Virus record (IMG/VR): IMGVR_UViG_3300028025_000865
Span: 1-25,682 of that record
Direction: 5' to 3' (one strand)
Source: a virus
Length of the DNA: 25,682 bases
The position numbers and the translations under genes are program-made. Below are positions 1 to 4,059 of this stretch, one piece after another (within the stretch, counting starts at the first letter, position 1; every line of letters starts with the position of its first letter). Under the pieces are notes generated by a model. The model searched no databases, had not been told where the DNA came from, and saw only the letters and a list, made by a program, of their open reading frames with translations.

Positions 1-42
1 TATATATATCTACCAACAAAATAGAACGTAAGGAATATGATA

Positions 43-678
43 ATGACTGAGATAGTTCAAGGAACGGAAGAATGGCATGCACTACGTCTTGGTAAAATCA
101 CCGCCAGTCGCATTGCAGACGTCATGGCAACGATTAAAACTGGTGAGGCAGCTAGTCGTGCAGACTACAGGATGCAACTCGTCTGTGAGCGTTTAAATGG
201 CAAGCGTGAAGAAGGCTACACTAATCAATACATGGCCAATGGTATCGAGTTAGAACCATTTGCTCGTGCATGGTATGAGGTAGAACGCAATGTGTTTGTT
301 AGGCAAGAGGCGTTTATGGAACATCCAACGTTGCCGTTCTGTGGGGCTAGTCCTGATGGCATAGTAGAAGAAGATGACGAGCTAGGGTTGATTGAAATCA
401 AATGCCCAAAAGCTACGACACACGCTAGGACAATGCTAGAAGATAGAGCGCCAACAAAATACATGCCACAGATGCAGTTTCAAATGGCATGCAGTGGGGC
501 CAAGTGGGTAGACTTTGTATCATACTGCCCTGAGTTCCCACTGGATTTACAATTGTTCATCAAACGCGTTTACCGGGATGATGAATATATTAAAGAGGTT
601 GAAAGCAAGGCAGTAGAGTTCAACGACGAAGTAGAAACAACAATTCAACGATTAAAAGGAAATAAAAATGGCAGTTAA
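43..678 (+). CDS. YqaJ-type viral recombinase exonuclease
   Basis: A 211-aa protein of the YqaJ/lambda-exonuclease family, which resects double-stranded DNA ends to give single strands for annealing-type recombination. Visible motifs are an N-terminal GTEEWHALRLGKITASR block (residues about 7-23), a G-x-E-x-E segment near residue 68-72, GASPDGIV with the metal-binding Asp about residue 105, and IEIKCP with Glu and Lys about 118 and 120. These form the D...ExK active site. A Gln-rich YMPQMQFQM motif follows. Length is normal for the family. I chose the ATG at 43 over the in-frame ATG at 37 because AGGA at 31-34 is 8 bases from the former and only 2 from the latter. It overlaps the next gene by 11 bases. 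No annealing partner (RecT/Erf/Red-beta) is visible; it may lie to the left. Confidence 0.9.
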   Translation: MTEIVQGTEEWHALRLGKITASRIADVMATIKTGEAASRADYRMQLVCERLNGKREEGYTNQYMANGIELEPFARAWYEVERNVFVRQEAFMEHPTLPFCGASPDGIVEEDDELGLIEIKCPKATTHARTMLEDRAPTKYMPQMQFQMACSGAKWVDFVSYCPEFPLDLQLFIKRVYRDDEYIKEVESKAVEFNDEVETTIQRLKGNKNGS

Positions 679-940
679 ATACAACTTAGTAGCAAAGAAT
701 GGCGAATACGAAGACAAGAATGGCGAGAAGAAAACACGCTGGACAAAGGTTGGCGTTGTTATGGAGACCAAGACTGGTGGCCTAGCAGCAAAGATTGAAT
801 TGTTCCCTATGGGCTGGGATGGCTGGTGCCAACTAGCAGAACCGGAGCCAGTAGTATCAATCGCTAAAGAAGGCGCTAAAGCTAACGGCTATCAGAAGCA
901 AGCCATTGATGAGATAGCAAGCGATATACCTTTTAATTAA
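668..940 (+). CDS. Small SSB-like protein with DIPF tail
   Basis: A 90-aa protein with no family I can name confidently. The first two thirds look like a compact beta-rich domain (KTRWTKVGVVMETKTGG, then a Trp-rich MGWDGW segment), followed by a short linker. The last residues are SDIPFN, close to the acidic DIPF tip by which bacterial SSB proteins recruit repair enzymes, here with one extra Asn. The start has a clean AGGA eight bases upstream, and the gene overlaps the exonuclease gene by 11 bases, so the two are translationally linked. From the tail and the context I infer a single-strand DNA-binding or replication/recombination accessory role. It could also be a dedicated cofactor of the exonuclease. 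The OB fold is not proven by what I can see. Confidence 0.75.
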   Translation: MAVKYNLVAKNGEYEDKNGEKKTRWTKVGVVMETKTGGLAAKIELFPMGWDGWCQLAEPEPVVSIAKEGAKANGYQKQAIDEIASDIPFN

Positions 941-1022
941 GTCCGACATCCCCACGGACTGACAAATATATGGGGATTCTTTTGTCATGCAACCCCAGCT
1001 AAAGGTGGGTTAAAACGTTAGC
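940..1022 (+). ncRNA. Structured intergenic RNA: kissing hairpins plus pseudoknot (candidate)
   Basis: This lies in the 179-base gap between the SSB-like gene and the regulator gene. Hairpin 1 pairs 940-945 (AGTCCG) with 955-960. Hairpin 2 starts on the next base and pairs 961-966 (GACAAA) with 981-986. Loop 1 bases 948-954 (ATCCCCA) are exactly complementary to loop 2 bases 971-977 (TGGGGAT), so the two hairpins can kiss over 7 bp. Downstream, 991-995 (AACCC) pairs with 1007-1011, and 998-1002 (GCTAA) with 1018-1022. These two interleave as an H-type pseudoknot. I do not recognise a known riboswitch or Rfam family. It could be a 3'-end stabiliser, a cis-regulatory leader or a small RNA. Confidence 0.45.
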
Positions 1023-1050
1023 AGGCCATCATGCACAGTTACCTTTCTAA

Positions 1051-1076
1051 ATATGTATTGCGTCAACAATACATAT
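1051..1076 (+). promoter_or_regulatory. 10-bp inverted repeat, candidate operator
   Basis: ATATGTATTG (1051-1060) and its exact reverse complement (1067-1076) flank the 6-base spacer CGTCAA. It ends 43 bases before the ATG of the winged-helix-like gene, and there is no T-run after it, so it is not an obvious terminator. A perfect AT-rich dyad in front of a regulator gene fits an autoregulatory operator. A weak sigma70-like match (TTGCAG 1078-1083, 16-base spacer, TATACA 1100-1105) lies just downstream. As RNA it would also form a hairpin. Confidence 0.45.
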
Positions 1077-1119
1077 ATTGCAGGGGTGGTTACTTAATTT
1101 ATACACTATGGAGAACACG

Positions 1120-1614
1120 ATGAGACCAGTAATTGAAAAGTATTTAAAAATAGAAATGCGTAACAAAAGTATTATGGATTTGATTGGCGATAAATCTATG
1201 ACAGCCATAGAGATAATCAAGCAGTCAGGTCTATCAAGAGATAATGTTTACTATGTATTGGCACACCTTACAGAGCATCATTACTTGACAATTACTAAGA
1301 GGCTAAAGAAGAAAGGCCACGGCATGTTGAATCACTACTCAGCATCAGGGATTGAGTTTGTGCCTAAGACAATTGAGCAGCTAGAGAAGATATACCCACG
1401 TGGTTACTTTGCTAAGCTACGCTATGACCAACGCACTGACGATGTTGTTGTTGATGAGAAAGGCCCATACGACGACATGATTGCAGCCAATCCAAACTTG
1501 AGAAAGATTGCGGCTATATGGGAAACTCGCCCAGAGTTATTTAAACAAGAGAAACGTAAGACAGAACATCGTGGTATACCAAGCACGTTCGGTATGTTTG
1601 ACATGGCAGCATAG
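1120..1614 (+). CDS. Winged-helix-like DNA-binding regulator
   Basis: A 164-aa protein whose residues about 18-68 fit a winged helix-turn-helix: a leading helix (SIMDLIGDKS), then MTAIEIIKQSGLSRDNVYYVLAHL as the helix-turn-helix, then a wing rich in Lys (KRLKKKGHG). This arrangement is typical of small MarR/ArsR-like or replication-control proteins. The C-terminal half (FVPKTIEQLEKIYPRGYFAK onward) is unassigned. I start at 1120 because GGAG at 1110-1113 sits six bases ahead; the in-frame ATG at 1108 and codons further upstream lack a ribosome-binding site. The perfect palindrome at 1051-1076 is a plausible target. It probably controls the small-gene operon that follows. An origin-binding role cannot be excluded. 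Confidence 0.75.
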   Translation: MRPVIEKYLKIEMRNKSIMDLIGDKSMTAIEIIKQSGLSRDNVYYVLAHLTEHHYLTITKRLKKKGHGMLNHYSASGIEFVPKTIEQLEKIYPRGYFAKLRYDQRTDDVVVDEKGPYDDMIAANPNLRKIAAIWETRPELFKQEKRKTEHRGIPSTFGMFDMAA

Positions 1615-1623
1615 GAGAAAGCA

Positions 1624-1884
1624 ATGTCTTTATTACCTTTGAATATAAACAATAATGCTCGGTCTATTAGCGACGGCTCAACTGCAAGCTACTATGAGTT
1701 ACCAAAAAATTCTACTGAACTACAAGACTTAATTAGCGCAAAGAATATGAACGCTCAAATAGGGGAAATATTTAGAGAATGTTATCGTTATGGACAAGCG
1801 TCACATTGCGATGAGATGCGAGGGATTAAAAAGATTTTATTTTATGCTAATGCTGAATTAAAGAGGTTACAAAATGTCGTGTAA
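1624..1884 (+). CDS. Small conserved-type phage protein, unknown function
   Basis: An 86-aa soluble protein, start ATG preceded by TAGGAGAAAGCA, a strong ribosome-binding site. The core (SYYELPKNSTELQDLISAKN, then QIGEIFRECYRYGQ and KKILFYANAELKRL) reads as three helices and is faintly reminiscent of the DUF3310/SaV-like family of small phage proteins, with the aromatic/Arg-rich helix around residues 46-60 followed by a Lys-rich helix. I cannot assign it firmly. It follows the regulator gene by 9 bases and overlaps the next gene by 11 bases, so it belongs to the same operon. Function unknown. Confidence 0.7.
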   Translation: MSLLPLNINNNARSISDGSTASYYELPKNSTELQDLISAKNMNAQIGEIFRECYRYGQASHCDEMRGIKKILFYANAELKRLQNVV

Positions 1885-2092
1885 TAAACAATGCAACCAA
1901 GGCCGTAACTGTAACTGTGACCGTAGTGGAGATAGAGCAGTAGTGATTGTAGCAACGTTACTACTTATTGCTGTGATGAGTATGGGTTACGGAGTATACA
2001 AACTATTTAACGTTACCAAAGGACAAGACTGTGCAGTAGAAGTGCAGTTTAGTAATGGTGTAAAGGCTACCTACCTTGGAACTAGCGTATGA
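1874..2092 (+). CDS. Cys-rich small membrane protein
   Basis: A 72-aa protein with one clear membrane segment (residues about 22-45: AVVIVATLLLIAVMSMGYGVY). Before it is a hydrophilic N-terminus with four cysteines at residues 3, 7, 13 and 15, plus basic residues, which would be cytoplasmic by the positive-inside rule. A short periplasmic tail (EVQFSNGVKATYLG) ends the protein. The Cys cluster could hold a metal. AGAGG lies seven bases before the ATG. Its stop overlaps the ATG of the next gene (ATGA-type). Early-operon membrane proteins of this size are often host-takeover or exclusion factors, but no specific function can be read. Confidence 0.7.
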   Translation: MSCNKQCNQGRNCNCDRSGDRAVVIVATLLLIAVMSMGYGVYKLFNVTKGQDCAVEVQFSNGVKATYLGTSV

Positions 2093-2349
2093 CTAAAGAC
2101 GAAGCATTAAAGATGGCGATTAATTTACTAGAAACATTAAAAAATGGAAAAGAAAATTTTGAGCAATCTAACATTCATATTGTTTGTGATTGTTGTAACT
2201 TAGCATTAAACACAAAATGGCAAGGATTAAGTGATGATGAAATAGATGATTTAATGTATCAATACTGTGATACAGATAATGGCTATTCAATTAAAAGTTT
2301 AATTAAATTGGTAGAGGAAAGATTAGAAAGAAGGAACAGCCATGACTAA
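2089..2349 (+). CDS. Small acidic phage protein, unknown
   Basis: An 86-aa acidic soluble protein starting MTKDEALKMAINLLETL, an opening common among small phage proteins that precede an EAL/EAM-type helix. The middle holds C-x-C-C (residues about 33-36) and LSDDEIDDLMYQ, which resembles the LTDEEI-type helix in many uncharacterised phage ORFs. The start codon is fused to the previous stop (ATGA) and GGAA lies eight bases upstream, so it is translated by coupling. The next 28-codon ORF begins with a near-identical N-terminus (MTKDEMDEL), which suggests a small duplication. Function unknown. Confidence 0.7.
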   Translation: MTKDEALKMAINLLETLKNGKENFEQSNIHIVCDCCNLALNTKWQGLSDDEIDDLMYQYCDTDNGYSIKSLIKLVEERLERRNSHD

Positions 2350-2428
2350 AGATGAGATGGATGAGCTTTACTATCTATTGATACTAAGTAAAATGAAAGA
2401 AAATGCAAAAAAATTATCAGGGAAATAA
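2342..2428 (+). CDS. 28-aa micro-ORF
   Basis: The ATG overlaps the end of the preceding gene by 8 bases, has AGGA seven bases upstream, and encodes MTKDEMDELYYLLILSKMKE plus a short basic tail, ending one base before the next ATG. The first residues copy the start of the previous protein. Packing and a good ribosome-binding site argue that it is translated. It may be a remnant of a duplicated gene or a peptide whose main job is to couple translation. Function unknown. Confidence 0.5.
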   Translation: MTKDEMDELYYLLILSKMKENAKKLSGK

Positions 2429-2429
2429 T

Positions 2430-2603
2430 ATGAATGGATGCCACAGTGACGTAGTTCCTGACAGGTGCCAGCACGATACGGTGTATCATAGCGATGGCAA
2501 GACATCATGGCCTTACATATTTACTAAAGATTGCCAATACTCAAAACAGGATATAATAGATGTTCGATGTGAGGGATGTAAGTTTAAACATGTACACGAT
2601 TGA
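2430..2603 (+). CDS. Cys/His-rich small protein, possible zinc binder
   Basis: A 57-aa protein with cysteines and histidines spread along it (C4, H5, C13, H14, C35, then CEGC near residues 47-50 and HVH near the end). The CxxC plus other Cys/His residues could hold a zinc ion. I start at the ATG at 2430 because AGGGA lies six bases before it, while the in-frame ATG at 2403 sits inside the previous micro-ORF with no ribosome-binding site. The following small membrane ORF overlaps its last 14 bases. Function unknown. Confidence 0.6.
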   Translation: MNGCHSDVVPDRCQHDTVYHSDGKTSWPYIFTKDCQYSKQDIIDVRCEGCKFKHVHD

Positions 2604-2706
2604 ATATATATTATGTTACAAAGAAGCGTTTGCTTTAGGAATGGCAACCGGGTTAGCAGTCGCCATCCTATATAACAAATATGTTACTTATTCATTACGT
2701 GCATAG
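2590..2706 (+). CDS. 38-aa single-helix membrane peptide
   Basis: This ORF begins inside the end of the preceding gene (+1 frame) and encodes a 38-aa peptide with a hydrophobic stretch, residues about 14-29 (FALGMATGLAVAILYN), followed by a short basic end. It looks like a one-pass membrane peptide. GAGGGA at 2571-2576 is rather far (13 bases), so translation may rely on coupling. Its last codons lie in the first copy of the 34-bp tandem repeat. Size and topology resemble small phage toxins, holins or regulators, but nothing more specific is supported. Confidence 0.5.
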   Translation: MYTIEYILCYKEAFALGMATGLAVAILYNKYVTYSLRA

Positions 2707-2746
2707 TAACTTATATGTTACTTATTCATTACGTACATAGTAACTT
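2679..2746 (+). repeat. Two tandem 34-bp direct repeats with internal dyads
   Basis: Copy 1 is 2679-2712 and copy 2 is 2713-2746, directly abutting and differing at one base (G at 2701, A at 2735). Each copy carries GTTACT and AGTAAC as inverted arms 16 bases apart. At the junction, AGTAAC and GTTACT are brought to 6 bases apart. Copy 1 includes the 3' end of the 38-aa ORF; copy 2 is non-coding, so it looks like a local tandem duplication, possibly kept as protein-binding sites. Confidence 0.9.
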
Positions 2747-2811
2747 CAAAGCCAAAGCGCATTTCTGTAGCTGCTGGTGATGTCCACATGATATAGTCCT
2801 TAATCTGTTCA

Positions 2812-2848
2812 AAGCAAGATTGCTTGTATGTAATAGTCTGCTTAATAT
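2812..2848 (+). promoter_or_regulatory. Candidate sigma70 promoter with overlapping palindrome
   Basis: TTGCTT (2820-2825), a 17-base spacer and TAATAT (2843-2848) make a plausible sigma70 promoter 44 bases upstream of the ATG at 2892. The -35 box is the right arm of a perfect 6-bp palindrome, AAGCAA-GA-TTGCTT (2812-2825), so a dimeric repressor could block it. The rest of the 2747-2891 gap shows nothing I recognise. Confidence 0.4.
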
Positions 2849-2891
2849 TAAAGACAAACAATAGAGAAAACCATGAATTGTAGGAGTTATT

Positions 2892-3116
2892 ATGGTAACA
2901 ACAACGAATGAAATTACTGGTGATGCAATCCTATCACGCAAGAATAACAAGCAATACGAAGATAACTACGATTTGATATGGGGCAAGAAGAACAAAGACC
3001 CTATCTGTGATGTGTGTGGCAAGAGCCTAGCGTCAACTAAAGAGTGTGGCTGGACTGGATGCCCATTGAATTGGGATGAAGGCCATATAGATATTAATGG
3101 CGGTGAGTTACCTTAG
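2892..3116 (+). CDS. Cys-rich protein, probable zinc-ribbon-like
   Basis: A 74-aa protein with a strong AGGAG ribosome-binding site seven bases before the ATG. Residues about 39-57 contain CDVCGK, then C and C (KECGWTGC), a CxxC...C...C set that suggests a small treble-clef or zinc ribbon. The N-terminal part (TGDAILSRKNNKQYEDNYDLIWG) is polar. It is the last gene of the + strand block, behind its own candidate promoter. Its stop codon interlocks with the stop of the opposing gene. Function unknown. Confidence 0.65.
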   Translation: MVTTTNEITGDAILSRKNNKQYEDNYDLIWGKKNKDPICDVCGKSLASTKECGWTGCPLNWDEGHIDINGGELP

Positions 3117-3298
3117 CTTGCGTATCGTTCGCACTCTACCCACATAGATAAGTCTTCACCGTTAATCTTAATCATCCCGGTGCTGGTGTGTATGTAAACA
3201 GTTTGCTCATCAGCATCGACTTCTATTTCTTCTATCTCTGAGCCAAGCAGTCTATTGCAAACGTCAACCATTGAGTCATCATCTTGTTGGTAGGCCAT
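3113..3298 (-). CDS. 61-aa acidic protein at the end of the late block
   Basis: A 61-aa acidic protein (MAYQQDDDSMVDVCNRLLG..., then two beta-like strands EIEEIEVDADEQTVYIHTST and MIKINGEDLSMWV). Its ATG overlaps the stop of the phosphoesterase gene (TGATG), so translation is probably coupled. It is the last - strand gene, with its stop interlocked (TTAG) with the + strand stop at 3114-3116. I recognise no family. The normal composition and tight packing support a real gene. Confidence 0.65.
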   Translation of the reverse strand: MAYQQDDDSMVDVCNRLLGSEIEEIEVDADEQTVYIHTSTGMIKINGEDLSMWVECERYAS

Positions 3299-4059
3299 CA
3301 GTAGTTATACCTTTCTTTAAGAAAGCGAATGGAAACAGGCATCTCATCAAATGCGCCATCATGCACTTCATGCAAGACGTAGAAGCCTCTGAAGTGTTGA
3401 TTGCCTTGTGGGCCTAAGTAGTCCTCATGATGCTCGTAGAAGCTGCCTGAAATTATGGCCGTCATTTCTCGCCCATCTGCCCGACGAGAGTACGCTATCT
3501 GTTTTCCTTGCTGATGGCCAGCAAAGCAACTCATGTGCTTCTTCGTAAGCAGAGCTTGAGCAGTAGTGATAGGCCTGCCCATGACCCCTGAGGTAAAGTA
3601 GTGACTATAAGCAATGCCATCAATAACGATGACATCGAGAAATGGTATAACTTCCCAGTCTTGATACGGTAAGTCATCTGTAGACATCAGCCCTTCAAGT
3701 TTGCTATCTTCATTGATAGCTCTATTAATTCTATTCTCGTGATTGCCTAGAGTGAGAACCATCCTAGGTTTATATTGCTTGTGTTTGTTGTGCTTTGCTG
3801 TCTTATTGTAGCGAAACAATGGGGTAAGAAGGGCATCCATTGCGTCTCTGGCTGCAAATAAATCCTTGGTGTACCTACGCCCCTCAAACGACTTCATTCC
3901 CCTGTCATACGTGCTTAAACTTTCCATGTCTGCAAAGTCTCCTATGCACACAATAACGTCGGGCTGTTTTTCTACAATAAAATTTCCAAGACATTTTAGG
4001 AAAGTAAAGTCATTCCCATCCTTGGCCTGCACATCCGGGATTACTAAGTGAACCGTCAT
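3298..4059 (-). CDS. Calcineurin-like metallophosphoesterase
   Basis: A 253-aa calcineurin-like phosphoesterase, predicted to hydrolyse phosphomono- or diesters using two metal ions. Motifs in order: IPDVQ (D9), GDFAD (D41), GNHENR (N106, H107, E108), YSHYF (H153) and AGHQQ (H182). The first motif is normally D-x-H; here it reads D-V-Q, a change I associate with the phage branch of the family. Substrate is unknown. It lacks a signal peptide, so it should act in the cytoplasm. Its ATG overlaps the endolysin stop (ATGA), placing it in the same operon as the lysis genes, though its role is more likely nucleotide or DNA metabolism than lysis. Confidence 0.88.
   Translation of the reverse strand: MTVHLVIPDVQAKDGNDFTFLKCLGNFIVEKQPDVIVCIGDFADMESLSTYDRGMKSFEGRRYTKDLFAARDAMDALLTPLFRYNKTAKHNKHKQYKPRMVLTLGNHENRINRAINEDSKLEGLMSTDDLPYQDWEVIPFLDVIVIDGIAYSHYFTSGVMGRPITTAQALLTKKHMSCFAGHQQGKQIAYSRRADGREMTAIISGSFYEHHEDYLGPQGNQHFRGFYVLHEVHDGAFDEMPVSIRFLKERYNY

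Follow-up and report, generated by a model that had tools for sequence, protein, structure and literature searches.

A predicted H-type pseudoknot at the end of an SSB-like gene in a podovirus fragment, a possible intercistronic mRNA element

Introduction

To our knowledge, H-type pseudoknots that control phage genes have rarely been documented. Structured RNAs of several other kinds invite comparison with the locus described here. The put RNA of phage HK022 is an antiterminator composed of adjacent hairpins in the phage transcript, and the antitoxin RNAs of type III toxin-antitoxin systems (the ToxI kind) consist of H-type pseudoknots, about 35 nt in length, arranged in tandem upstream of a gene. 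In phage T4, the pseudoknot of gene 32 is the nucleation site for the cooperative binding of gp32 (PMC535899; PMC3014915).

Here we describe a pseudoknot, PK1, at the end of an SSB-like gene in a viral DNA fragment (the window, i.e. the whole 25.7-kb stretch analysed), together with the RNA that separates this gene from a winged-helix gene downstream. The gene 32 operators of T4, T2 and RB69 are like the predicted PK1 in that they are compact H-type pseudoknots, beside an SSB gene, whose two stems can stack and whose first loop is short; any kinship of the window's SSB-like protein with gp32 is hypothetical. The two differ in placement: the gene 32 pseudoknot belongs to the SSB gene's own 5' leader, about 67 nt ahead of the start, whereas PK1 lies at the ssb stop codon. 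Moreover, a bare tract rich in UUAAA/UAAA leads from the gene 32 knot to the ribosome binding site, whereas here the corresponding RNA is predicted to fold and its sole UUAAA (1010-1014) is lost in L002, the one relative with the same RNA. The HK022 put RNA resembles the original prediction for this locus, which pictured two abutting hairpins with complementary loops; L002 does not retain the second of them. A type III antitoxin RNA was considered and rejected, as there are no tandem repeats in 900-1140 and the gene downstream encodes a winged-helix protein and not a ToxN/AbiQ-like endoribonuclease.

Genomic context

The window is a fragment of a probable Methylophilales podovirus, with a portal protein 79% identical to that of the Methylophilales phage MEP301. 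A YqaJ-family recombination exonuclease gene (37..678, + strand; Pfam PF09588, E 1.2e-31; phrog_149 exonuclease) is followed by the SSB-like gene (668..940, + strand, 90 aa), whose distant phage homologues are annotated as single-stranded DNA-binding protein. The DIPF/DVPF C-terminal tip of the SSB-like protein is present in all relatives. The protein matched no Pfam family, and its AlphaFold model (pLDDT 53) was too poor to confirm the fold. We note that in both genomes with the pseudoknot the acidic tail of this protein ends in DIPFN in place of DIPF (929-940 in the window). A displacement of the stop by one base seems to be the cause, and it leaves the usual final Phe in the penultimate position.

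The downstream gene (1120..1614, + strand) is preceded by a Shine-Dalgarno-like TGGAG (1109..1113, + strand) and encodes a winged-helix DNA-binding protein, as indicated by a confident wHTH part in the model, by PadR/ArsR/MarR-like matches and by weak Pfam HTH hits. Across the relatives, the DNA-binding half of this family is variable and the C-terminal part (EKGPYDDMIAANPNLRKI...EHRGIPSTFGM) is nearly invariant. The order exonuclease-ssb-element-wHTH is kept, and the ssb and wHTH genes lie on one strand. No intrinsic terminator, i.e. no G+C-rich hairpin with a T run behind it, was found in positions 1-3300. The suggestion that the segment makes a discrete small RNA has neither a terminator nor a promoter to speak for it.

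Structure of PK1

All the pairings that had been predicted between the two genes are present in the sequence. The topology described as two hairpins with complementary loops is, in other words, that of an H-type pseudoknot plus an optional extra hairpin formed from loop 3. Stem 1 of PK1 pairs AGTCCG (940..945, + strand) with its exact complement CGGACT (955..960, + strand), and stem 2 pairs ATCCCCA (948..954, + strand), which lies within the loop of stem 1, with its exact complement TGGGGAT (971..977, + strand). The three loops are 2, 0 and 10 nt long, the third being the A-rich GACAAATATA (961..970, + strand). PK1 opens with base 940, on which the ssb stop codon ends. Two competing pairings are possible: the 3' strand of stem 2 may have an alternative partner in the CCCCA at 993-997, and an outer inverted repeat, AATTAAGT / ACTTAATT (935-942 / 1092-1099, + strand), which is kept in L002, excludes part of stem 1.

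The rarity of these shapes was estimated by shuffling, and since the shapes were picked after the sequence had been seen, the figures are upper bounds on the surprise. Of 2000 shuffled versions of the 182-nt intergenic region (938-1119), 4 contained a PK1-type pseudoknot; among shuffled window strands, about 2.5% had one as long as PK1 and as rich in G+C. Abutting hairpins with stems of at least 6 and at least 7 complementary loop bases were found once on the + strand of the window, and one of 300 shuffled strands contained them. Other measures are ordinary: shuffled strands have about one pseudoknot with exact 6/6 stems each, the two strands of the window have 22 and 21 exact 5/5 pseudoknots where shuffles give 14.6 +/- 4.1, and the nested folding energy of 930-1040 is that of shuffled sequence (z = +0.23).

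Sequence conservation

Among 19 related viral contigs, the same intergenic RNA was found in one, L002 (identical with L033, IMGVR_UViG_3300036985_002954). Over 935-1108 this sequence is 78% identical to the window, and conserved blocks reach as far as the ribosome binding site of the winged-helix gene. It is conspicuous that all 26 paired bases of PK1 are unchanged and that a single one of its 38 positions differs (C963A, in loop 3). In the next 133 bases, 23 of 117 aligned positions differ (20%; Fisher p = 0.009 for the comparison with PK1). PK1 is also better conserved than the end of the ssb gene, where at least 5 differences fall within the final 30 bases; the SSB-like protein is 100% identical in the two genomes.

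With only two members in everything that was searched, PK1 shows no covariation, and its invariance is the only evidence that homology provides. There is no open frame common to both versions, so the conservation is not accounted for by a coding function. A small-peptide reading was ruled out by the frames in the window and L002. A pseudoknot for programmed frameshifting or readthrough was likewise rejected: there is no spacer after the stop, and the readthrough frame of 26 codons in the window meets a stop within 13 codons in L002.

The original prediction had recognised no known RNA family, and the searches agree. In Rfam release 15, no family reached the gathering threshold in the window and relaxed thresholds gave nothing for the element, the best sub-threshold match being sn1502 (18.8 vs 60 bits). 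An exact-pattern scan of 2.9 million viral contigs with the three conserved blocks returned only L002/L033 and chance matches in unrelated contexts, one conserved block had no match in 84,980 prokaryotic genomes, and distant blastn in phages and plasmids gave no real match to the element. In 17 related records the element was found only in that of L002, and MEP301 gave a 19-base match (E 0.003). Within the limits of these exact-pattern and blastn scans the element is an unclassified instance of a familiar kind, the phage mRNA pseudoknot.

Additional helices

The rest of the predicted structure fares less well in L002. The second of the abutting hairpins, GACAAA/TTTGTC (961..986, + strand), has 3 of its 6 pairs broken there; for this hairpin the original prediction thus runs into the refuting case that it had named itself, a relative without compensatory changes. 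A possible second pseudoknot (991..1022, + strand), in which AACCC/GGGTT (991-995/1007-1011) interleaves with GCTAA/TTAGC (998-1002/1018-1022), is weak: its second stem is unchanged, one of the five pairs of its first stem is replaced by an A.A mismatch, and exact 5/5 knots are common by chance. The kissing hairpins are thereby reduced to one H-type pseudoknot, which is invariant and not covarying, and the second pseudoknot is unproven.

Another helix, P3, which was not in the original prediction, pairs 1024-1030 with 1085-1091 and, further in, 1032-1035 with 1079-1082 (1024..1091, + strand) and closes a hypervariable hairpin. The region ends about 18 nt before the Shine-Dalgarno sequence of the winged-helix gene. 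Between the window and L002, P3 shows two one-sided changes that keep the pairs, and no pair is broken. A common helix with at least two tolerated changes was also found in 77 of 1000 column shuffles (7.7%), so the support for P3 is only suggestive. In sum, of the interlocking structures first proposed one knot is credible; P3 is plausible, and the remainder is unsupported.

An alternative leader at the same site

The other 18 relatives (L003-L020) carry, at exactly the same intergenic place, an unrelated and shorter leader, here called type B. Its layout is ATGGGG-AAAAG-hairpin-CTAGTA-CCCA and it ends a few bases before the same Shine-Dalgarno sequence. The type B leader and the PK1 element thus share the two flanking genes, the ribosome binding site and the ability to fold, whereas type B is unrelated in sequence and forms a single hairpin and no pseudoknot. 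Examples of the hairpin just upstream of the winged-helix gene are seen in L010 (3293-3336) and L019 (3267-3329); in the latter, GGGC/GCCC replaces GGGG/CCCC. Formal pair counts (covariation) for the type B hairpin were not above those of the controls, and none of the seven loci scanned with this leader gave an Rfam match at the gathering threshold. The GAAA/AGUA internal loop of the type B helix resembles a loop E motif, i.e. one with a bulged G.

In L016 and L004, the type B leader stands before a regulator that shares 96% identity with that of the window. Leader type and regulator type therefore assort independently, which argues against an operator specific for the regulator and for a general-purpose or modular element. 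The presence of an unrelated hairpin in 18 relatives indicates that the site holds a swappable, structured intercistronic element ahead of the winged-helix gene. In MEP301 and P19250A, the closest relatives in culture, the corresponding position is taken up by other genes or by pqqA.

Possible functions

We tentatively read the roughly 180 nt between the SSB-like and winged-helix genes as an intercistronic, cis-acting mRNA element of which PK1 is the best-supported part. Such an element, lying in a message read through from ssb, would act on the downstream cistron. While ssb is translated, terminating ribosomes would cover stem 1 of PK1 and keep it open; once the ribosomes are gone, or if some protein binds the knot, PK1 and the helices behind it would close, provided that they fold in vivo as drawn. 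The closed form might then set the level of downstream translation, or the cutting and decay of the mRNA, and the effect could be in either direction. The proposal that this RNA is a cis-regulator of the downstream genes is supported by the presence of a foldable element at this site in every relative and by the two changes that P3 tolerates; the independence of leader type and regulator type tells against it in its regulator-specific form. The cis-acting reading also draws on the rarity of PK1 in shuffles, on the invariance of its paired bases and on the kept gene order, with no terminator found between the two genes. The sequences show the pairings, their rarity, the conservation of PK1 and the exchange of leaders at the site; transcription across the region, folding in the cell, a binding partner and the sign of the effect are inferred.

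The main functional rival is that PK1 is a stability plug in the 3' UTR of the exonuclease-ssb message, which would hold up 3'-to-5' nucleases or mark a site of processing and leave the downstream gene unaffected. It is established in general that 3' structures protect bacterial mRNAs, and PK1 begins at the stop codon and is the best-conserved intergenic stretch. We regard this as unlikely, given that the conserved blocks run on to the ribosome binding site of the next gene and that nothing comparable follows the stop closely in the relatives, whose hairpin adjoins the downstream ribosome binding site instead. The main null explanation, namely that PK1 is a strong but functionless pairing kept because the window and L002 share the segment by recent descent, is somewhat unlikely. 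It draws on the frequency of exact 6/6 pseudoknots in shuffled strands, on the average nested energy, and on a comparison of two sequences only, with the adjoining ssb protein fully identical in both; the 4 occurrences in 2000 local shuffles speak against it, as does the fact that PK1 is better conserved than both its neighbors, the end of ssb and the RNA that follows.

The PK1 block beside a conserved gene end could be due to recent shared ancestry or to a DNA element. The latter, an operator, replication start or recombination site whose inverted repeats would work at the level of DNA, double- or single-stranded, would suit the position of the repeats 948-954/971-977 and 935-942/1092-1099 next to the exonuclease and ssb genes, and also the exchange of the site between two unrelated sequences. 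It is nevertheless improbable, as 900-1140 holds no direct repeats or iterons, the 3' conserved blocks occur only once in the window, and a specific operator for the winged-helix protein is at odds with the unlinked regulator and leader types. The SSB-like gene next to PK1 makes an SSB-binding role attractive. By analogy with T4 gene 32, SSB would bind PK1, spread along the RNA and repress the winged-helix gene; PK1 belongs to the general class of the gene 32 pseudoknot and adjoins an SSB-like gene with a DIPF tail. We consider this very doubtful: PK1 is behind ssb and not in its leader, about 140 nt instead of about 67 nt before the start that it would control, the RNA after it is structured and not bare, with no kept series of UUAAA repeats, and PK1 is missing in sister phages whose SSB is almost the same. 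That the locus is a second, independently evolved case of control by a phage SSB and an H-type pseudoknot, acting on the next gene of the operon and with different RNAs swapped in by sister phages, is hardly to be expected.

A conserved knot where an SSB gene ends, in phages whose hosts are abundant methylotrophs, offers a clean and inexpensive test case. The swap of two unrelated structured elements would moreover show how control RNAs between cistrons are exchanged by phages; should PK1 be a product of chance and recent descent, it is of no consequence.

Additional observations

In L017, positions 1004-1070 of the - strand gave a borderline Rfam match to the int-alpA RNA (36.1 vs 35.8 bits). 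Positions 2721-2789 of the window (- strand) encode MWTSPAATEMRFGFEVTMYVMNK, a PqqA-like cofactor precursor peptide, which is also found in nearly all the related contigs and in P19250A (L076). Lake Baikal methylotroph phages are reported to carry pqqA (PMC7678222). MEP301 as well carries a pqqA (L091, 3384-3316, - strand), which is unannotated and absent from the account given in the MEP301 paper.
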